Part shown: one piece after another, positions 18-11,018 of the stretch
How the letters are laid out: the number at the start of each line of letters is the position of its first letter
Numbering within the stretch: position 1 is the first letter of the stretch
Source of the DNA: Candidatus Omnitrophota bacterium
Lineage (GTDB): Bacteria > Omnitrophota > Gorgyraeia > Zapsychrales > Zapsychraceae
Assembly: GCA_023247445.1 (NCBI GenBank)
Contig: JAHFGL010000023.1
Coordinates: 1-36,583, forward strand
Direction: 5' to 3'
DNA length: 36,583 bases
The notes under the pieces: generated by a model
Databases searched by the model: none
What the model saw: only the letters and a program-made list of their open reading frames with translations
Told to the model about the DNA's origin: nothing
Translations under genes and position numbers: made by a program

Positions 18-905
18 ATGCCAGAAATAAGAAAAAGTTTATCTAAAAGACTATTAATGAAGTTGTTGATTGGAGCAGTGGCTGTGACGGTGAATTTGAG
101 TAGTTCAATGGCTGGGGCGCAGGATCAGCAGTCAGGTTATAGCTATGGTTTCTTAAAGAAATCCAGAGCATTTATTGCACAATATGTTGCTATTGATGGA
201 GATTTTGAAAATGTTTCAAAAAACTGGAGGGATCTGCTGGACCCTAATAGTAATAGTCGAGTTCATCTTGCGATATCCCCAGGAAAAGTTTGGTTTGAGG
301 TTAATTTCCCTTTTCCCGCCGGTCCGAAGAGTTCTTTAGATAATTTTTCTTTCGTCGCCGAACGTGCGGCTAAATCGGCACAAGACAAAATAACGTTAAT
401 TATTCAGGAAGCACGAGATAAGGCTAAAAGTTATATTCCATCTTTTCCTGATAATCAAGCAAGCGAAAACTCAGAACCAGATACTAAAAATGCTGGTACA
501 AGGGAAGTTTCTACACCTCTTCCTGTCAGAGAAGCGAAAGAAACGGCAACAGAAACACAAGAACTCGAGTCTCAGAATAATGGTAAAACACCACTTGACC
601 AGCCGGCAAAGAGTGAAGCTGAAAATAAAGATATCGATGAGTCAATGTTTTCAACTCCAGTATCAGAAGTTAAAACTAAAAAACCCAATGAGGTTGGAGG
701 TATCGATTTTAATCCCAACGGCATTAATATGGCTGTTGAAAATAAAGGCGAGGCGCCTAAGTTTAACTTTGATCTGCAACAGCTTAAAGATTTGAATATT
801 CAGGGTCTCCAACCGATTATTACCAACATGATGCCAGTAACCAACATCCCCCTTTTGTTGGGAATTAATAATGAAGAAGAATCTTTGGATGAGTCAAGCT
901 CGTAG
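18..905 (+). CDS. Secreted protein of unknown function with GGIDxN-type C-terminal block
   Basis: I do not recognise a named family. The N-terminus has a basic stretch, then a hydrophobic run (about residues 15-32) ending in SSSMAGAQ, which fits a cleavable Sec signal peptide. Residues about 140-225 are a low-complexity, charged Glu/Lys/Thr/Ser-rich linker. The C-terminus (about 226-283) reads VGGIDFNPNG, then a leucine/isoleucine-rich stretch with the pattern PVTNIPLLLG. The next gene, a 2325-aa protein, ends in a related block, so the two proteins are probably exported or sorted in the same way. A GAGGGAAGG run just before the ATG at 18 can act as a ribosome binding site. The frame is open to the left edge of the window and a second ATG at 57 also leaves a good signal peptide, so the exact start is uncertain. 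Confidence 0.75.
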   Translation: MPEIRKSLSKRLLMKLLIGAVAVTVNLSSSMAGAQDQQSGYSYGFLKKSRAFIAQYVAIDGDFENVSKNWRDLLDPNSNSRVHLAISPGKVWFEVNFPFPAGPKSSLDNFSFVAERAAKSAQDKITLIIQEARDKAKSYIPSFPDNQASENSEPDTKNAGTREVSTPLPVREAKETATETQELESQNNGKTPLDQPAKSEAENKDIDESMFSTPVSEVKTKKPNEVGGIDFNPNGINMAVENKGEAPKFNFDLQQLKDLNIQGLQPIITNMMPVTNIPLLLGINNEEESLDESSS

Positions 906-987
906 TTCTATCATCGTCGATAAATAAGGCAAGAAAACGTTTCCCGCAAATGCCTCCTAGCCCCTAGTTTTCGCTAAAAATGCAATT

Positions 988-993
988 TATACT
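988..993 (+). promoter_or_regulatory. Possible -10 element upstream of the giant gene
   Basis: TATACT lies 68 bases before the 2325-aa gene in a 156-bp gap. The matching -35 position (965-970, TAGTTT) is poor, so the call rests on the -10 alone. The gap holds no terminator that I can see. The giant gene has a G-rich ribosome binding site (GGGGGGAT, about 1050-1057). Confidence 0.25.
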
Positions 994-1061
994 TTTTATG
1001 TATGAGAAAACATTTATTTTAATGAGATATTCTTTTTAACCAATCCTTCGGGGGGATAATC

Positions 1062-4000
1062 ATGATTTCAAAAAAAGGTATTTTTCAGTGGATCAAAGAG
1101 TCATCTGCTTTTAGATGGGTGAATCTGGCGGTGGTCATGTTTTTTGTCAGCAATTTTGTTCTCTTTGATTTCGGGAGAACACAAGCTGCCTCTGCCCAGA
1201 TATTGATTCAACATACACCAGGAACGCTCTTGCCATTATCTGCCCCCATGAGTCCTCCTATATTAAGAGGAATACAAGTTCACCCTGAACAACCTTTTGA
1301 TTTCGATTTTATTATGGATGGTCCAGAAGGAAAGCCCATTGAGGAAAAAGAAGCAAGTCAGATGGTTAAATATTTTCTAACCCTTTTAGCCATTCCAGAA
1401 GGAGATGTTTGGGTTAACCTTTCACCTTATGAAAAAGATAAAATTGTTCCTTCGACACTTGGTGCTACCGATGTCGGCAGAGAGCTTTTAGTTCAAGATT
1501 ATCTGCTCAAACAATTATCTGCTTCACTAACTTATCCCGAAACTGAGTTAGGTCAGAATTATTGGAAAGAGCTTTATGAAAAAGTGGGCAAAGAGTTAGG
1601 GATGAAGGATGTGCCACTCAACACTTTTAACAAAGTTTGGATTGTTCCGGCCAAGGCGGTTGTTTATGAAGCTAATAATCAAGCTTATGTTGTTGAAAGT
1701 CGATTGAAAGTTATGCTTGATGAGGATTACGTTGCCTTACATAAAAATATTGATTCAGAACGGTTTGGAACCAATCAAGTCGAGAATAAAGAGGCCAAAG
1801 AGGTTAATAAAATTATTTCAGATGCCACGCGCGATATTCTTATTCCGCAGCTAGAGAAAGAAATCAATGAAGGCGAAAATTTTGCATCGCTACGACAGAT
1901 TTATAACGCCATGATTTTGGCTACGTGGTTTAAGATGAAATTAAAATCAAGCGTCGTTAGTCAACTTTATGCCAACAAAAGTAAAGTTGTCGGCATTGAG
2001 ATGGATGACACAACATACAAACAGGAAGTTTATGAACAGTATTTAGAGGCGTTTAAAAAAGGCGCGTATGACTATATTAAGGAAGATTATGATAGTGAAA
2101 CCCAAAGTGTCGTTCCGCGTCAATATTTTTCTGGAGGGGTTAGGGGATTAGATGAGGCAATGTTGAGTGTTCAAAGCGGGACGCCAGGGATGTTTCGAGC
2201 TCTTTTTGAAAGATTAAAAGGAAGAAGAATGCAATCGTTGGGCGTGAGGCTGGGGCAATTATTTTCTATGCCTCAATGGAGAAAACAGAGTCCAGCAGCT
2301 ATCCTTGAGACCTTAAAGGCGGGAAAAGATTTAAGTTTAAATCAACGATTGAGTAGTTTTAATAGTTTTATGACTAGTCTTGTGACTAATGATTCTCCTT
2401 TAAAAACTTTAGCGGAACGAAAGGAATTCATTAGGAAATTATTACTTCAGAATATACGTGAAAATAAATTCAATTTGCTTGAGTTGCAACAAATCTTTAG
2501 TGTTTTATCAGACGGTATTATTAATAACAATTTAGACCTTAGTCGATTTGATTATATGAGGGACTTTCTTAATGAGCTCGTTTTCGCGATGGCTAATAAT
2601 GGAGGAGCTCCATTTGTTGCGCAACAACTTAACCGACTCAATGATTTGATTGACCCGCCCATAACAACCGCCCAAGGCGTTGCAGAATTAAACGCACAAC
2701 CGACCGATCAAAATGCGCTAAAAGCAAGAGTGAAATTATTAAGAACATTTCGTGGGGCTTTGGAAATGACCTTTTTTTCTGGAAATGCATTGGCCGCGGC
2801 TAATGCCTCACAACTTCCTTTTCGATTTAATGAAAAGATATCTACAGTAGCAACAGGGAAGGAAAAAGAAGGTCAAGAAATTAAAATGAGAAGGCTCGTT
2901 GACGAAATCGTTCGGCAACGACAGGCCTTAGTTGCCGCTTTGGAAGGGTTCCAAGTGGATAATGATGTTTCATTTACTGACTCGGTTAGCATTGAATTTG
3001 TTGATCGTTTGCCCTCGGGAGCACAGGCTGAGTTTAATAATACAGATGGGATCTTAAGAATTGCCGTGACGATGAATCCAAATGAGATTAAAAAGCAAAT
3101 CGTGGCGGGTCTTGTTTCAGGAAAATTACGAGCGATCGAAACTCAATTAACTAAGGACCTTGGACAATATTGGGGTCCATTATTGTTTGGTAAAATTCAG
3201 CAGATGGTTACGCAAGGGATATCTCTACAAGCATTCATCACGCTTTATAATATTCTTAACACGGATAAAGTAACGAAAGTTCAAAGATCTGATTTTTTAA
3301 ATGAGTTGGTCAATGTTTCTATTGATAAAAGTAAGGACAAAGCCGCCAAAGGTGTGGCTATCGACAAATTATTAAAGCGCGCAGAAGATCTTTTAGTCGC
3401 TGATTTAAAGACTGCAAAGAATCAAAGAGAACGTGGGCGAATTTGGAAAGCATCTTATGCGCTACGCAATGCTGCTCTTGGATTAGCAGGACTCGCGGCG
3501 GTAGCTTGGGGTGGAAATGCTGCTCTTAATGCTCCTGTCGATGGCAATCTTGCTGACAGAGGGGCGGCTATTGCCAGTGTTGTTCAAGATGAAAAAGCTT
3601 CTAATTTATTGGCAGGACAAACACCAAGCGCAACGGCATCAATGACAGGAACACAAACGGCAAGTCCGACGGCAACACCAACGGCAACAACAGCAGAACC
3701 GTCAGCTACACCAACTTCAGGAACAGTTGAAGCGATTGCGGCTCGTCAAGCAGAAAATACAATAACACCGATCATCGTATCACCTCCAACAGCGACACCA
3801 GGTAAACCAACACCGAATGTAACACCTGAGAATCCTTCATTTCGCCTTTCGCTTGCAAAAAGACAGGCAGTAAAATGGGCAACACAAACAGCGAAGGCAG
3901 AAGAACAAACAGGAACACCAACGGCAACACCGACAGCAACGCCAACTGCGACCCCAACTGAAACAGCAACATCATCACCAACGGCAACGCCTAGTCCATT

Positions 4001-7000
4001 TGATCCAACAGGAGAAACCACGCCAAGCGCGACTAAAATCGTAGATGAAATTACAGTTAAAAATCCAAAAATAACTCCTGATCAAAAAGCTGAACTTGAG
4101 AAAATGGTTGAAGGAGCTTTGGCCGGAAACCAAATAACCATTGCTGATATTATGAAAAGGTTAGGTGAATTATTGAATCCAGCGGCTACGCCAACAGTCG
4201 CAGTTCCGGTAGCATCGCCAACAGCTAAAGCAACACCTGAGGCCACCAAGGCCGCTGCCGTAGATATGATTGCTAGACATATTATGCCTGGATACCAAGC
4301 AACCTATAATCAATTAAAAAAGTTTATGGGCGAGGGAGCTAATCCTATTCGACGTTTTCAAGAAAGATATAATCAAATACCAGGTGTTACTAAAATTAAG
4401 GTAGATGATATTATCGGCCCCGAGACGGCTGGAAAGTTTACCGCGGTTAATTTAGCCGGAGGATTTGAAGCTTATGAAAAAGGAATAAATAATCCTATAA
4501 ATGATCCTATTGAAAAGTTTGTGGCAAGTGTTGCCGCAGAAACTCCAGCGAGTAGTCCAGCCGTTGATGCGTTTGTTGAAGAGGTTGAAAGTATTCTTGC
4601 TGAAGTTAATGTGTTTTTAAAACAAGATGAAGCAGAAAGAAGTCCGATAAGATTAGCTGTTTTAGCTAGTCAATTAGATAGTGCTATTAATAATTTTCCT
4701 GCTAGCGATGCGCTTAAGCCAGAAGGGCGACAGGCTTTTCAACAATTAAATTTATTATCAGCATTACTCAAAGGAACATCTCTCGAAGGAGAGCGAAATC
4801 TTCCAAGAGCCGTCAAATATGCTCAAGGACAATTAGGTATTGTAAAAACTAGTGTTGTAGAGACGACAGAAGTTGGTACTGTAGATCAAACAGAAACAGC
4901 ATCTAAAGAACAAGGGTTGGCTGCCAAAGCATTACGTGCTGTTAAGAAAATTGGTAATAAAATTTATGGAGAGGAAGAAGGACGAGAGTTAGATCGTCGC
5001 ATTAAGGGGTTGAGCGACAAGTTAGGTGAATTTGAAACAGCGGCTGGAGTTGTCAGTGCCGACAAAATAAATGTGCTAGGGCAAGTAAGGGGAGTATTAG
5101 GTTTAATGGCTCAGGTAAACCCAACAATAGAAGGAGCAGAGGGTGCTTACAAGGCTAAGGCTATTCAGTTAGAAGGTCTATTAAATAATTTAGGCAAAGA
5201 TGCTCCACTAAGTAGAGAGCAACAAAGAGTTGTCAATGAAGCAAAGGATCAACTTAATGGTTTTAAAGAGTATGCCGCCCGTGCTGGTCAAGATGTGAGT
5301 CCAATCGGAGTTAAGATCGTTGTAGTGGCATCAGCGAAAGCCGGGAAAGCAGCTGCACAGGCCGTTGGGAAAGCAGCCACAGCCGTGCAAGATGCTATAA
5401 CCAGAGATAATTCTCAAGCCCCTGTTGCTCAAAGATCAGAGGATGTTTATAACGCATTAGATGGGATTGATATGAAAGGTTTACCATCTGATGTTCAAGA
5501 CGCAATCAATGATGCCGCTTGGGATGCTTTAGTGATGCATGTCAGCGCCCAGGATTTGAGCAGCAAAGGTCCGCAAGGAGCGTATCCGTTAGTGAGAGAT
5601 TATTTAAGTAACTTTTTTCAAAATACACCAGGCTTTTTATCTCGTACATTTACTAGTCCTTCGGCTCAATTAAAAAGATTGACGGGACAAGAAAATCAGC
5701 AAGAAGCATTAGCCAGAATTGTGGGTGAGGCAACAGATGCCGTTAATAAGATTAAGCCTGAATCATTAACAGAACAACAACAGGCCTCTGTTAAAAAGTT
5801 AAAAGGTGAATTAGAGTTTTTGAAAAACTATTTACAACTTTTAAAAGAAGGTAAAGTTGAAGAAGCGAAGGCGTCGTTAGCTAAACGATTAACGGATTCT
5901 TTGGCTGATTTAGGTAGTCGATTTGTTGCTGGGCCTGCGCAAAGGGCGATCAATGCCGTCAGTCCTAAAGTCGCGGAGTTAAAGGATCAAGCCGCAGAAG
6001 TCGGTGATGGACTTAAAGGAGTTTTGATAGTTCGTCACGGAGTTGAAACTCGGACTAAGAGTAGTGATATTAAAAATGAAGCAGGGAAATTAAAAGGCAA
6101 AGTTAATGCGACAGGTCAAGCCGCTCTTGATTCTATTGTTAAAGAGGCAGAAGTTATTCGTAAAGCCGCAAAGAATTTTGAACAAGATGGGGCTAGGGCG
6201 ATGATTCAAACTTCGGCTCAATCAATGAGTGCTTCTTTCGATATAGTAAGAAATAATTTAGTAGGCGCTGGATTAGCTGAGCAGATAGCGATCGCTAGAA
6301 TGCGTGCGATGGCAGAAGGAATTCAGTCTTTAGCCGCTGAGGGAGATATGACATTGCCCCGAACGGTACAGCTTGTCAGTGTGCCTTTAAAGGTGATGGA
6401 AGGTGTTGTCGAACCAATTCTTTCTCCTGTTTATACTGCCGGGACTGTTACTAGAGAAGTTAAATCCGCCGCGGTTGAAGGACAAGAAGCATTGGCTAAT
6501 TTGGGTCGAGAAATTCAGCAGACCTTTGTTGCTACTCAATCCAGAAGGTTAAAGGATGATTTAGGCCGTCTTAAATTTTCTCTTGAAGATCTTAGAAATA
6601 ATTCTGGAGTGCGTAAAAATCCAACGGCTTTTAATGATGTCATAACTCAGGCTGACATTTTGCAATCAATGGTTGGAGATTTAGCGGATCCATTACAAGT
6701 AGCAATTTTTAATACTCGTCTGACAGGGTTAGAACGTTCAGTTCAAACAATGGAAGGACAGGTAGATAAAAAGGATGTGGAGGCGGCTGTCGCGTTGGCT
6801 CGTCTCAGATACTATATTGATAATATCAAAAGCAAAATTGCCGATGGGCAAACAGCGCAGCAAGAGCTGGCTAGATTAAGCGGAATTTATGATGGGATTG
6901 GCAGTGCTTTGCAGTCAATAGCGGATGCGGCGGAAAATGTTTCTACATCTGTTGGAACAAGATTAAAAACACTCGTGGCTAGTATAACGCCTAAACAAGA

Positions 7001-8039
7001 GCCGGTGGTTGTTGTTGATGCCCAAGTTCTTGGTCAACAAACAGAAGCTGTCCATGCGATATTAATGCAATATTATCAGTTGTTTGGTTACGGTACTGAA
7101 GCAAACTTGGCAATACGAGAATTGTTAGGTCAGGCAGAAGAAAGTTTAAAATCTGCGCGAGAAAGTTCAGATCCTAAAAAAGCTAAAGAACAAATAGACG
7201 CTGCGAAAGCAAAGTTAAGACAAGCTCAAGAGCGTATTTCTAAAGATGGTGCTAATCCTGGAAGAAAATTAACAACAGAAACGATAGCTGATTTAAAAAC
7301 TGCTAAGAATGAACTTGATGGAATTTTAGCGCAAGGAAATTTAAATCCGCAAGATACGCAAGGCATTGCAGATCTTGATAAAAAGTTGGGCCAAATTATT
7401 GATGATTTTATCGTCAACCATCCAACGATGGATGAAAAATCTTTTGATGGATTAATACAGGCGCGTACTTATACAGGTATCGCCATGAGCGGAACAATGC
7501 CAGCTAGTGTTATGGCACAGACCTTAGGTGTGGCTCAGACGGGAATTAATAACACTTTGGCATCTTGGAATGCACAGTTTGCTGAGTTAATGGCCAAAGG
7601 TGAACGCGAGGGATTAGTGGCGATGTCGGTAAGTCTCGACAATACCGTCAAGGCCTTAGAGACAGCGCAAACTTCTGCTCAAGAAGCGGATGAGGCATTG
7701 CTGACGCTTTCCCAAGAGGATCGAGAAAAGGAGAAAGTTGGAGGTATCGATCTTAATTTGCTTTCATCCGATGTCGATGTTCAAAGCAGTGGTGAGCCCA
7801 TTGAGTTATTAGATATTCCAATGTCAACAGAGATGATTCAGAATTTTCAAGGATTTGATTTTACCATCATGCAGTTTAGCCCGATTGCCAACCCGGTTCA
7901 GTATCTAGGGCAGTTAATTGAGCCAGGGGTGTCAACGGATGTTGATCAAACATCTTTACCAGAGGCAGATCAAAAACCGATGGATGGAGAGTTGTTAAGT
8001 AAGGTTTATATTAAGTCAGATGAGCTGGTGATGGTTTAA
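1062..8039 (+). CDS. Giant (2325 aa) secreted/surface protein with T/P/A-rich linker and long helical tail
   Basis: No named family is recognised. Residues about 17-45 form a hydrophobic segment ending in AASAQ, consistent with a signal peptide or anchor. Residues about 45-800 are mixed helical sequence. A second hydrophobic stretch (about 803-825, LGLAGLAAVAWGGNAAL) may cross or contact a membrane. Residues about 850-1067 are a Thr/Pro/Ala/Ser-rich linker with repeated TPTATPTAT units. Residues about 1090-1130 (IRRFQERYNQ then IGPETAGKF) faintly resemble a peptidoglycan-binding repeat. From about 1150 to 2200 the sequence is rich in Ala, Leu, Lys, Glu and Gln and looks like long alpha-helical or coiled-coil bundles. 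The C-terminus (about 2226-2284) repeats the GGIDLN ... PIANPVQYLG pattern seen in the upstream gene. The ATG at 1062 follows GGGGGGAT. A cell-surface or envelope-spanning structural role is inferred, not shown. Confidence 0.85.
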   Translation: MISKKGIFQWIKESSAFRWVNLAVVMFFVSNFVLFDFGRTQAASAQILIQHTPGTLLPLSAPMSPPILRGIQVHPEQPFDFDFIMDGPEGKPIEEKEASQMVKYFLTLLAIPEGDVWVNLSPYEKDKIVPSTLGATDVGRELLVQDYLLKQLSASLTYPETELGQNYWKELYEKVGKELGMKDVPLNTFNKVWIVPAKAVVYEANNQAYVVESRLKVMLDEDYVALHKNIDSERFGTNQVENKEAKEVNKIISDATRDILIPQLEKEINEGENFASLRQIYNAMILATWFKMKLKSSVVSQLYANKSKVVGIEMDDTTYKQEVYEQYLEAFKKGAYDYIKEDYDSETQSVVPRQYFSGGVRGLDEAMLSVQSGTPGMFRALFERLKGRRMQSLGVRLGQLFSMPQWRKQSPAAILETLKAGKDLSLNQRLSSFNSFMTSLVTNDSPLKTLAERKEFIRKLLLQNIRENKFNLLELQQIFSVLSDGIINNNLDLSRFDYMRDFLNELVFAMANNGGAPFVAQQLNRLNDLIDPPITTAQGVAELNAQPTDQNALKARVKLLRTFRGALEMTFFSGNALAAANASQLPFRFNEKISTVATGKEKEGQEIKMRRLVDEIVRQRQALVAALEGFQVDNDVSFTDSVSIEFVDRLPSGAQAEFNNTDGILRIAVTMNPNEIKKQIVAGLVSGKLRAIETQLTKDLGQYWGPLLFGKIQQMVTQGISLQAFITLYNILNTDKVTKVQRSDFLNELVNVSIDKSKDKAAKGVAIDKLLKRAEDLLVADLKTAKNQRERGRIWKASYALRNAALGLAGLAAVAWGGNAALNAPVDGNLADRGAAIASVVQDEKASNLLAGQTPSATASMTGTQTASPTATPTATTAEPSATPTSGTVEAIAARQAENTITPIIVSPPTATPGKPTPNVTPENPSFRLSLAKRQAVKWATQTAKAEEQTGTPTATPTATPTATPTETATSSPTATPSPFDPTGETTPSATKIVDEITVKNPKITPDQKAELEKMVEGALAGNQITIADIMKRLGELLNPAATPTVAVPVASPTAKATPEATKAAAVDMIARHIMPGYQATYNQLKKFMGEGANPIRRFQERYNQIPGVTKIKVDDIIGPETAGKFTAVNLAGGFEAYEKGINNPINDPIEKFVASVAAETPASSPAVDAFVEEVESILAEVNVFLKQDEAERSPIRLAVLASQLDSAINNFPASDALKPEGRQAFQQLNLLSALLKGTSLEGERNLPRAVKYAQGQLGIVKTSVVETTEVGTVDQTETASKEQGLAAKALRAVKKIGNKIYGEEEGRELDRRIKGLSDKLGEFETAAGVVSADKINVLGQVRGVLGLMAQVNPTIEGAEGAYKAKAIQLEGLLNNLGKDAPLSREQQRVVNEAKDQLNGFKEYAARAGQDVSPIGVKIVVVASAKAGKAAAQAVGKAATAVQDAITRDNSQAPVAQRSEDVYNALDGIDMKGLPSDVQDAINDAAWDALVMHVSAQDLSSKGPQGAYPLVRDYLSNFFQNTPGFLSRTFTSPSAQLKRLTGQENQQEALARIVGEATDAVNKIKPESLTEQQQASVKKLKGELEFLKNYLQLLKEGKVEEAKASLAKRLTDSLADLGSRFVAGPAQRAINAVSPKVAELKDQAAEVGDGLKGVLIVRHGVETRTKSSDIKNEAGKLKGKVNATGQAALDSIVKEAEVIRKAAKNFEQDGARAMIQTSAQSMSASFDIVRNNLVGAGLAEQIAIARMRAMAEGIQSLAAEGDMTLPRTVQLVSVPLKVMEGVVEPILSPVYTAGTVTREVKSAAVEGQEALANLGREIQQTFVATQSRRLKDDLGRLKFSLEDLRNNSGVRKNPTAFNDVITQADILQSMVGDLADPLQVAIFNTRLTGLERSVQTMEGQVDKKDVEAAVALARLRYYIDNIKSKIADGQTAQQELARLSGIYDGIGSALQSIADAAENVSTSVGTRLKTLVASITPKQEPVVVVDAQVLGQQTEAVHAILMQYYQLFGYGTEANLAIRELLGQAEESLKSARESSDPKKAKEQIDAAKAKLRQAQERISKDGANPGRKLTTETIADLKTAKNELDGILAQGNLNPQDTQGIADLDKKLGQIIDDFIVNHPTMDEKSFDGLIQARTYTGIAMSGTMPASVMAQTLGVAQTGINNTLASWNAQFAELMAKGEREGLVAMSVSLDNTVKALETAQTSAQEADEALLTLSQEDREKEKVGGIDLNLLSSDVDVQSSGEPIELLDIPMSTEMIQNFQGFDFTIMQFSPIANPVQYLGQLIEPGVSTDVDQTSLPEADQKPMDGELLSKVYIKSDELVMV
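3617..4255 (+). repeat. Thr/Pro/Ala-rich low-complexity coding repeat
   Basis: Short imperfect repeats built from ACACCAACGGCAACA-like units encode the TPTATPTAT linker of the giant protein. The densest part is about 3910-3990. Unit number could vary between strains by slippage. The reverse strand stays open in places here only because of the base composition. Confidence 0.7.
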
Positions 8040-8190: not shown

Positions 8191-10401
8191 TTATTCAGTC
8201 CATTCATCAGAAGTTGCGGTAACAAGTTCTCGAGCAGGTTTTTCGGCGAGTTGTTTTAGAATATCATTGGCCAGCGATTTTCCAATCTGAGGGATTTTGG
8301 AAAGTTGATCAGCCGAGAGACGTTTAACGTCCGTTAGTTTTTTGATGCCACTATTAAAAAGATTTCGCGCACGCACGCGGCCAACTCCTTTTAATTCCAC
8401 GAGCTCGAGCAATTCTTTTTTAACCCCATAATGCACACGATTACGTAGCGCCTCCAGCTGAAACGTTAATGTTCGTTTATGGAATAGTTGCGCGATCATT
8501 CCTGTTGCGTAGAGGAGCCATTGAACAGACTCAATATGGCGAAAGATATCTCCGGGTCCGATTCCAAACTGATCACAGATCATTTCTTCTTTTTCTTCAT
8601 CGATCCATTGACTGAGCAGCCACGTCGTTTTAATCGTCGCTAAGTAGGCATAAAGATCATCAAACGCTCCAAAATTATCCGCCGTCATAATAAATTCGTC
8701 AGCAAATTGGGAAGCGAAGGTCTCCAGAACTTCCATATCATTTTTCCCGACATTTAAAACTGGACTATCCGGTGCGCAGCAAATTAGATGCAAAATCCCA
8801 ATCGGAGGAAATGGAGCGGTGTCTTTGAGTTTACTTAAACCGTTACGCAGGATAATTGCCGTCATGGGGTCAATATAAAGACGGCTGGTGAGCGCCCCCA
8901 GCGGTGTGGCAAAAAAACGAAATCCGCTTTTTTCAATAAATCCTTCTTTGTTTAAAAATTCAAAGATCTCGCTGATGATCTCTAAAAGATTTGAAGTCTG
9001 CCTTTGATGATAGAGAAAGGTGTGTTTGATAAATTCAAACATACTGTTGACGTCATTGACATATCCGCCAGCAACGGAGGATAAGATCTGGATCCGTAGC
9101 GAAGCTTCGTTAGAGAGTTTTGAAATGACCGGCTCCGGCGCGGCATGAATATATTTTTCAAACAGTGTTTGGGTTTCTGAAAATGTTTTGGCAATAAGAA
9201 CTGCTTCGCCGTAATCATCAAACTGCGGACGTCCAGCGCGTCCGGCGCATTGCTTGTATTCAGACGTAGGAATATAGGCAGCACCAATGCCGCTTTCAAA
9301 ACGTTTTAAGTCGCGGATAATCGCCCGTCGGGCGGGCAGGTTAACGCCGGCTGCAAGGGTTGGTGTACAACTAATAACTTTAATTAAATTCTTTTTAAAA
9401 CTTTCTTCGATTAGCTCCCGCTGATTTGGTTTGAGCCCTGCGTGATGAAAGGCGACACCGTGTAAAACAACATCGGCCAACTTGCGGCAAATTTTTGTCG
9501 AATCACTGGGGCCGCCAGCCATTTTTTTAGATATTGGAATTAACTGACTTCGTTCATCGGCGGTTAAGATTTTTCCAACGCTCTTACAAACTTGAACACT
9601 CACCGCCTGCGCGGATCGGCGGGAGTTAACAAAAATGAGAACCTGTCCTTGGGCGCGTAGCGTATCAACGCTTAGTTTACTTAAATCATCCGGCTCATCT
9701 TCGGTAATCATTTTTGTCGCGTAGCCATCAAACTGAATGCGTTCATTATAATAAACGCCTTCTTTAAGTGGGATCGGCCGCCATTGACTTAAGACAAGTT
9801 CGGCTTTGAGCCAGTCAGCCATTTCCTGCGCGTTACGCACGGTGGCGCTCAGCGCCAAGACCTGGACGTTTGGATTAAGTTGCCTAATCCTGGCGATTAA
9901 GATTTCCATTGTGGGCCCACGCAGACCGTCATTAATAAAATGAATTTCATCCAGGACAACGACACTTAAAGAATCAATCAACCACTTGGCTTTGGATCGC
10001 AGCAGTGAATCTACTTTCTCGGCGGTCGCGACAATAATTTTGTAACGATTTAAATATTTGCTGGGAGAATCGATGTCGCCAATGGCTAGACCAACGTCAA
10101 TACCCAGATCGGCGTATTTTTTCTTAAAGTCATTAAATTTTTCGCTCGCCAGGGCTTTTAACGGCGCGATGTAGAGACAGCGTCCGTTATTGGCAAGAAT
10201 GGATTTGAGCATGCACAGTTCGGCGATGAGAGTTTTTCCCGCGGCGGTTGGCACTGACATCAAAAGATTTTTGCCTTTTAAAATTCCTTTGGTGATGGCT
10301 TCGGCTTGCGGGGGATAAAGGTCTTGGATTTTTGAGGCCAGAAAAATGTCGATGGCGTTTTGCGGAAAATCATTTTGCTCCAAAACATTTCGTAATTTCA
10401 T
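8191..10401 (-). CDS. Ski2/Hel308-like superfamily 2 DNA helicase
   Basis: An ATP-dependent helicase, probably 3'-5' on DNA and acting on stalled forks or recombination intermediates by analogy with Hel308. The superfamily 2 motifs are in order: Q-motif-like YPPQAEAI (29-36), Walker A PTAAGKT (51-57), motif II DEIH (151-154), motif III SAT (185-187), then FVNSRRSAQ, HHAGL, CTPTLAAGVNLPARR and motif VI QCAGRAGRP (about 383-391). After a winged-helix/ratchet-like part, residues about 660-725 carry helix-hairpin-helix sequence (LKGVGRVRARNLFNSG, then IPQIGKSLANDIL). At 736 aa the length matches Hel308. These enzymes are best known from archaea and eukaryotes but related bacterial copies exist. 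The gene is divergent from dtd. No Shine-Dalgarno sequence precedes the ATG, and the likely promoter ends almost at it. Hel308 versus another Ski2-like branch is not settled. Confidence 0.93.
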   Translation of the reverse strand: MKLRNVLEQNDFPQNAIDIFLASKIQDLYPPQAEAITKGILKGKNLLMSVPTAAGKTLIAELCMLKSILANNGRCLYIAPLKALASEKFNDFKKKYADLGIDVGLAIGDIDSPSKYLNRYKIIVATAEKVDSLLRSKAKWLIDSLSVVVLDEIHFINDGLRGPTMEILIARIRQLNPNVQVLALSATVRNAQEMADWLKAELVLSQWRPIPLKEGVYYNERIQFDGYATKMITEDEPDDLSKLSVDTLRAQGQVLIFVNSRRSAQAVSVQVCKSVGKILTADERSQLIPISKKMAGGPSDSTKICRKLADVVLHGVAFHHAGLKPNQRELIEESFKKNLIKVISCTPTLAAGVNLPARRAIIRDLKRFESGIGAAYIPTSEYKQCAGRAGRPQFDDYGEAVLIAKTFSETQTLFEKYIHAAPEPVISKLSNEASLRIQILSSVAGGYVNDVNSMFEFIKHTFLYHQRQTSNLLEIISEIFEFLNKEGFIEKSGFRFFATPLGALTSRLYIDPMTAIILRNGLSKLKDTAPFPPIGILHLICCAPDSPVLNVGKNDMEVLETFASQFADEFIMTADNFGAFDDLYAYLATIKTTWLLSQWIDEEKEEMICDQFGIGPGDIFRHIESVQWLLYATGMIAQLFHKRTLTFQLEALRNRVHYGVKKELLELVELKGVGRVRARNLFNSGIKKLTDVKRLSADQLSKIPQIGKSLANDILKQLAEKPARELVTATSDEWTE

Positions 10402-10531: not shown

Positions 10532-10574
10532 CAACCCATCTGCTTTTTTGTTAATGATAAAAAGGGAAACTTAG

Positions 10575-11018
10575 ATGAAAGTTGTTATTCAACGCGTCAC
10601 AGAAGCGCAGGTCGATGTCGCCGAGGAAACGGTTGGTCAAATTGGCGAGGGGATGCTAATTTTTGTTGGTATTGGCAAAGAGGATACAACCCAAGAAGCG
10701 GATATTCTTATTCGAAAGATTATTGGGCTACGAATCTTTGAAGATGATAAGGGGAAGATGAATTTATCCGCGCTTGAACAGCGTGCTGAGATTTTAATTG
10801 TCTCGCAGTTTACGTTGTATGGCGATTGTGACAAAGGCCGTCGACCCTCCTTTGATAAGGCGGCTGAGCCAGAGATAGCCGAGGAGCTTTATAATTATCT
10901 TGTCGAAGGCTTGCGTAAGTATGATTTGAAAATTGAAACCGGCCGATTCCGCGCGATGATGGAAGTTTCGCTCGTTAATGATGGCCCGGTTACTTTTATT
11001 TTAGAAAGTAATAAATAA
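10575..11018 (+). CDS. dtd: D-aminoacyl-tRNA deacylase
   Basis: A cytoplasmic proofreading enzyme that hydrolyses D-amino acids (and mischarged glycine) from tRNA. The family starts with MKVVIQRV, as here. The two signature motifs are present: SQFTLYGDCDKGRRPSF (about 77-93) and the cis-Pro motif NDGPVTF near the C-terminus. The length of 147 aa is typical. The ATG at 10575 is the family N-terminus. A longer open frame from 10430 in another register is not the gene. It is the first gene after the 10503-10531 promoter, and tatD follows after 3 bases, so the two are co-transcribed. Confidence 0.96.
   Translation: MKVVIQRVTEAQVDVAEETVGQIGEGMLIFVGIGKEDTTQEADILIRKIIGLRIFEDDKGKMNLSALEQRAEILIVSQFTLYGDCDKGRRPSFDKAAEPEIAEELYNYLVEGLRKYDLKIETGRFRAMMEVSLVNDGPVTFILESNK

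Follow-up and report, generated by a model that had tools for sequence, protein, structure and literature searches.

Two adjacent genes near the start of contig JAHFGL010000023.1 of a Candidatus Omnitrophota bacterium (family Zapsychraceae, assembly GCA_023247445.1) encode predicted exported proteins, here called P0001 and P0002, that end in related blocks of sequence, and the question raised by this locus is what such a shared tail does. The window, i.e., the whole stretch of DNA analysed, is this entire contig, 36,583 nucleotides of a 2.29-Mb genome in 75 contigs. With moderate confidence, we propose that the tail forms the C-terminal end of giant exported polyproteins belonging to a two-ended family and that it works with a conserved module at the other end of the chain (the N-module).

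The tails of P0001 and P0002 align at 32% identity and follow the pattern described in a sequence-only reading of the window (VGGID(F/L)N, then QG, P..(T/A)N and a final LG). The 15-base DNA identity reported there is exact (gttggaggtatcgat at 693 and 7737, nowhere else in the window), and both proteins indeed have Sec-like N-termini according to simple hydropathy. The features of the two genes are as follows.

18 to 905, plus strand: P0001, 295 amino acids (aa), with an export signal, a unique low-complexity body and the C-terminal tail, without N-module
51 to 122, plus strand: predicted Sec signal of P0001, hydrophobic core LLMKLLIGAVAVTV, then AGAQ; hydropathy 2.3
636 to 653, plus strand: linker-like motif DESMFS upstream of the P0001 tail, a relaxed form of D-x-A-M-[LVF]-[ST]
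696 to 866, plus strand: tail of P0001, GGIDFN ... PVTNIPLLLG
1062 to 8039, plus strand: P0002, a two-ended giant protein of 2325 aa, with signal, N-module, variable body and tail
1062 to 1190, plus strand: predicted Sec signal of P0002
1218 to 2138, plus strand: N-module of P0002 (WVNLSPYEKD ... QDYLLKQ ... YFSGG), profile match E 2e-154
2151 to 2168, plus strand: linker motif DEAMLS, immediately downstream of the N-module
2169 to 7688, plus strand: variable body of P0002, with no confident Pfam domain but helical-looking and Thr/Pro-rich stretches
7689 to 7706, plus strand: linker motif DEALLT, shortly ahead of the tail
7740 to 7913, plus strand: tail of P0002, GGIDLN ... PIANPVQYLG, with 41 residues from there to the stop

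The two proteins had been said to differ apart from their tails. This has to be amended for P0002, which carries the ~310-aa N-module common to the whole tailed family; P0001 alone is without it.

The tail and its N-terminal counterpart

A search of the same genome with the first tail returned seven further intact tails (E 1.6e-12 to 2.2e-7), each closing an open reading frame (ORF) of 1443-4963 aa, and one decayed copy; the likeness is therefore far beyond chance. In a sample of the phylum, the tail was found in 17 of 145 genomes, 16 of which belong to the same order (own genome counted), with up to at least 44 copies each. Genomes covering ~85,000 species were also scanned, and 78 loci were kept from the 143 relatives detected. 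Almost all of these loci are labelled Candidatus Omnitrophota, which makes the tail a feature of this phylum; the few other labels are probably misnamed or contaminated bins. The collected loci and the own genome comprise at least 108 Candidatus Omnitrophota proteins with one tail per ORF, located 0-78 residues ahead of the stop in 108 of 108. Thus, the tail is not confined to two paralogues and is never internal in these proteins, and none was recognised in any complete protein without an export signal. A hydrophobic core was present in 75 of 77 N-termini (simple hydropathy).

The tail is 55-60 aa long, opens with GGI(D/N) and has the consensus GGI(D/N)(L/F)N..xLDLQIKRDGxGVPLPL..Q...(N)x(I)xG(F)xPVIINIxPxxNLPLLLG. 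Only GGI is invariant in the widest tail set, and a later Pro and Gly are near-invariant. In a genome of another order (G036), the tails have diverged and GGI[DNS] is still present near the end. No match to the tail was found in Pfam, NCBIfam or PDB sequences: 71 tails gave unrelated matches only against NCBIfam (E > 0.06), and 35 tails gave three single weak unrelated matches against Pfam and nothing else. A tail query matched no viral contig, and the tail was rejected as a phage feature.

Several side observations concern the tail. Tandem arrays and broken copies are frequent in the order; at locus L011, an intact tailed gene is followed, immediately past its stop, by a second, decayed tail (about 10545-10675; G000:C27:77562-77645). 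The N-module proteins of G036 (L145-L155) show two more tail types, one short and diverged, the other with GGID followed by a ~90-aa helical-looking C-terminus. There is also synonymous constraint at the tail start, the second Gly codon of GGI being GGT in 92 of 101 proteins (27.5 expected); the GGI codons lie at 696-704 and 7740-7748 in the window. This fixation is unmatched by any conserved N-module column, and other Gly-Ile pairs have no such bias.

The N-module is ~310 aa long and strongly conserved (WVNLSPYEKDRIIP..FG.TEMGRDLL.QDY.LKQ..ASL.YPE ... NTFNKVWIVP ... EIEKEVNEGK.FA.LRQIYNSMILATWYK ... IPRKYFSGG), and no relative was found in Pfam, NCBIfam or PDB sequences. Within the order, 70 of 73 genomes contain it, each with 1 to ~76 copies; across the phylum, 37 of 145 genomes do. 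G107, G146 and G147, which belong to the same order but have no N-module, are natural controls in any search for the partner machinery. Most family members measure 2-15 kb; the longest N-module ORFs listed have 5839 and 6160 aa.

Pairing of the two ends is nearly complete. Among tailed ORFs having an upstream stop, the N-module follows a signal-like N-terminus in 67 of 70, and the three exceptions are one ORF with an assembly gap, one at a contig edge and one with a frameshift. In an independent sample picked by the N-module, 12 of 15 complete ORFs carry the tail; two of the remaining three contain assembly gaps, and L233 is unexplained. In the own genome, the ORFs of all five tail-less N-modules continue past a contig end, and the three tails lacking an N-module lie in ORFs open at contig starts. 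Read from the sequences, the architecture is thus a predicted signal, the N-module, variable domains and the tail. An N-module query also matched three IMG/VR contigs classed as viral (L220-L222), two of them with a tail and perhaps representing host DNA beside a prophage; L220 is a complete ORF of ~1219 aa.

P0001 is the sole clear signal-plus-tail protein without N-module, which was not detected even with HMMER --max. A search for its body across 73 genomes of the order gave nothing beyond one marginal 26% match. Short tailed ORFs in other genomes are contig-edge pieces or broken-looking genes, none of which was recognised as signal plus tail. Downstream of P0002, the window contains a DEAD/DEAH helicase gene (8191-10401, minus strand) with Pfam archaeal helicase domain 4 (Hel308-like), an apparently uncommon find in bacteria.

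The N-module has distant homologues in a domain of Streptomyces plasmid proteins (hhalign probability 99.9%, E 3e-31, 30% identity over 237 columns) and represents an undescribed domain family spanning phyla. These homologues (L223, L224, L225, L226, L227 and L228; accessions include WP_121549542.1, WP_331747086.1 and WP_266737726.1) are secreted hypothetical proteins of about 760-830 aa that end in a transmembrane helix plus basic residues, with LADTG or LAHTG in three of six. These two motifs resemble the class E sortase signal LAXTG (PMC5148588), and the proteins are apparently surface-anchored, some of them by this type of signal. Unlike the Omnitrophota family, the Streptomyces proteins show one match per record and have no Omnitrophota tail; instead, GG[IV]D[FL] flanks the homologous domain on both sides in six of six.

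A compact tail domain, which the sequence-only reading had suggested looking for, was not supported by AlphaFold2 (AF2) with 71 aligned tail sequences. For a complete 795-aa member, the mean predicted local distance difference test score (pLDDT) was 54.7; most of the N-module scored clearly higher, and the first ~20 tail residues reached 74-81 and partly formed strands. When the tail was modelled alone, the same residues were unstructured and without strands (predicted template modelling score 0.22). The ordering of the tail in the whole-chain model is weak evidence that it may dock on another part of the chain. A Foldseek search with the AF2 model gave no match with E under 0.001 and no fold for the N-module.

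Enzyme-derived bodies and the motifs between their domains

The bodies between the two ends range from 356 to more than 4,000 residues, and their Pfam domains are of cytosolic enzyme types and signalling types. They include PGK, enolase, His_Phos_1, isocitrate lyase, malate synthase, GH77, UDPGP, phosphoglucomutase, glutamate dehydrogenase, NAPRTase, acyl-CoA dehydrogenase, MutS V, ThiG, DnaJ, Fic, AvrB-like, LMWPc and aldo/keto reductase, among others. Some chains hold several enzymes (PGK and enolase; PGK and His_Phos_1; malate synthase and isocitrate lyase), and one 5005-aa protein is a patchwork of acyl-CoA dehydrogenase, MutS V and ThiG. Effector-like domains (Fic, low-molecular-weight phosphatase and AvrB-like) stand among the enzyme modules of L014, L016 and other bodies.

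The PGKs in the bodies are second copies. PGK was found in 44 of 46 genomes, nearly all of which have a complete copy of normal length (~400 aa), and about 10 genomes hold an additional, more divergent PGK inside a long ORF. These captured PGKs grade from near-intact motifs (L063 and L069) to loss of substrate and nucleotide motifs (L052 and L067). In a small, weakly resolved PGK tree, most captured copies of the order cluster apart from the housekeeping PGK, suggesting that they are old; this order thus offers no support for PGK still being captured from the host genome.

Two short linker motifs were found by 4-mer counting over 144,000 body residues. D-x-A-M-[LVFI]-[ST] occurs 60 times in bodies versus 0 times in 208,000 residues of control ORFs, and SSP[VIM] occurs 73 times versus twice in the same controls. 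The motifs mark domain borders: only 1 of 58 DxAM-type sites lies inside a Pfam domain (8.4 expected), and that one is at a ThiG/propeller border. In addition, motifs are enriched within 45 aa ahead of the tail (21/57, 6.1 expected) and within 60 aa past the N-module (20/41, 5.7 expected). In one chain, for example, PGK spans 1684-2089, DAAMLS lies at 2099 and enolase begins at 2114.

In these sequences, the motif type (DxAM[LVF][ST] or SSP[VIM]) depends on lineage. No protein among the 108 contained both types (7.4 expected; 0 of 5000 shuffles). At the genome level the split is weak on its own (two genomes with both types versus 4.4 expected, P 0.07), and the motif-rich genomes among the loci added later keep it. 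On the PGK tree, the SSPV genomes require at least two origins. Recent DNA repeats are ruled out as the source of the linkers, because the DNA words differ at most sites (58 different words for 61 DxAM sites); a synonymous bias remains, the Ala codon of DxAM being GCG in 40 of 61 sites (15.1 expected).

Candidate roles of the two ends

According to the interpretation that we favour, the whole chain would be exported with its Sec-type signal and N-module in front, as simple hydropathy and the surface-anchored homologues suggest. The tail would then act with the N-module, most simply by folding back onto it or by entering the same export or anchoring step. The linker motifs would be recognition points, probably cut sites read by a lineage-specific protease, and cleavage would release the enzyme modules, or part them from one another, outside the cytoplasm. 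P0001 would use its tail in trans with the N-module machinery. Joint action of the two ends, cleavage at the motifs and any role in a host or prey are what we infer here.

Several findings weigh against this interpretation. P0001 carries a tail without N-module, and L220 and L233 carry an N-module without a recognisable tail. Neither linker motif is present in 46 of 108 bodies, and among the added loci both types occur in genomes G137 and G071 and in proteins L170 and L172. The eroded active sites of some captured PGKs argue against enzymatic function in all members. No processing protease was found, exosortase being the only candidate tested. Moreover, the AF2 models are weak overall, which makes the proposed contact between the tail and the N-module tentative.

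It is unlikely, in our view, that the tail serves by itself as a C-terminal signal for sorting or anchoring, cut at or near GG-I-D by a dedicated protease or export gate, with only a historical tie to the N-module. The sequence-only reading had favoured such a signal on proteins of unrelated body, and the tail does sit at the extreme C-terminus of many exported carriers; these carriers are, however, not independent, the N-module being an almost obligate partner. The invariant GGI start with its near-invariant Pro and Gly, the persistence of GGI[DNS] in the otherwise diverged tails of G036 and the failure of AF2 to yield a compact domain all suit a signal, and P0001, the only example matching a pure sorting tag, keeps this explanation alive. 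On the other hand, no sorting family of NCBIfam or Pfam was matched, and the expected tracking of the tail with a protease was not observed for exosortase. This enzyme is absent from the tail-rich genomes G115, G132, G045, G071, G087, G116 and G137 and present in G107, which has neither tail nor N-module, and in G146 and G147, which have no N-module; it is thereby ruled out as the partner enzyme. As a separate observation, PEP-CTERM-like genes adjoin two two-ended genes (L011 10741-11460; L012 486-1133), and the own genome has one exosortase.

Known C-terminal systems resemble the tail in part. Type IX secretion of Bacteroidetes likewise places a C-terminal module on large secreted proteins (PMC5445135), but the Omnitrophota tail is shorter than that C-terminal domain, forms no compact domain in AF2 and has no Pfam or NCBIfam match. 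The PEP-CTERM/exosortase, GlyGly-CTERM/rhombosortase and MYXO-CTERM systems use short C-terminal tags on many signal-peptide substrates per genome (PMC1569441, PMC3237569, PMC11980579). The tail is similarly a short C-terminal homology region on many signal-peptide proteins. Unlike these tags, it has no recognised basic cluster of the PEP-CTERM or LPXTG type and no canonical membrane helix, and its carriers have the N-module in common. By inspection, the tails also have no PEP motif, and the segment past the conserved core (..LLG) is often acidic.

An ordinary lineage-specific paralogue family, in which the N-module and tail are merely the conserved ends of one insertion-tolerant domain with no sorting or processing role, appears improbable to us. 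In Streptomyces, GG[IV]D[FL] stands just before and just after the homologous domain, which suggests, without proving, that the Omnitrophota tail is a displaced element from the edge of the N-module fold. As its best match in the Streptomyces segment, the tail profile picked the GGID site, but the match is not significant (E 0.01, probability 3%). Common tandem arrays and decayed copies and the erosion of captured PGK domains would also be at home in such a family, which nevertheless does not explain why the linker motifs at domain borders are lineage-specific and exclude each other.

A gene-capture cassette, i.e., a DNA-level element of conserved ends and linkers that fuses neighbouring genes in frame, would fit the patchwork bodies, the GGT and GCG biases and a GGT codon more fixed than any N-module column, but it is highly improbable in view of the many DNA words behind the DxAM sites and of bookended PGKs whose capture looks old, not ongoing.

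Two further systems combine related features. Polymorphic toxins of the Rhs type have a conserved export module and highly variable, exchangeable enzymatic parts, with many paralogues per genome. The Omnitrophota family is alike in these respects and differs in that its variable part lies between two conserved ends and contains mainly metabolic enzymes. Viral polyproteins hold several enzymes in a single chain, split by short recognition motifs. The enzymes and short motifs of the two-ended chains are comparable, but their genes are cellular, with signal peptides and many paralogues, and cleavage is here only predicted.

Giant proteins are a hallmark of Omnitrophota. In the portion of Seymour et al. 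2023 (PMC10066038) available to us, ORFs of over 20 kb are reported that are mostly poorly conserved, have few annotated domains and are thought to be surface or host-interaction proteins with poorly understood roles. As far as that portion goes, the two-ended proteins share with them the phylum, the great ORF length and the scarcity of annotated domains and differ in being mostly 2-15 kb long, with conserved ends, enzyme-derived modules and linker motifs; it holds no description of the N-module, the tail or the linker motifs.

The sequence rule of front module, tail and linkers defines one large class of long exported proteins, present in almost every genome of the order, and splits them into testable modules; even a cautious interpretation adds two new, very large sequence families. 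Should the motifs prove to be cleavage sites, this would be a bacterium running exported polyproteins with a switchable cleavage code. A bolder version, which we put forward tentatively and regard as doubtful, is that this order of uncultured Omnitrophota exports dozens of polyproteins per cell to deliver second-copy enzymes of central metabolism and signalling to the outside, perhaps into host or prey cells, and that a lineage-specific protease cuts them at either of two interchangeable codes (DxAM[LV][ST] or SSPV) that replaced each other in evolution. Cellular export and processing of this kind would be without a described precedent, and enzymes working outside the cell would bear directly on how tiny, possibly predatory cells exploit others.

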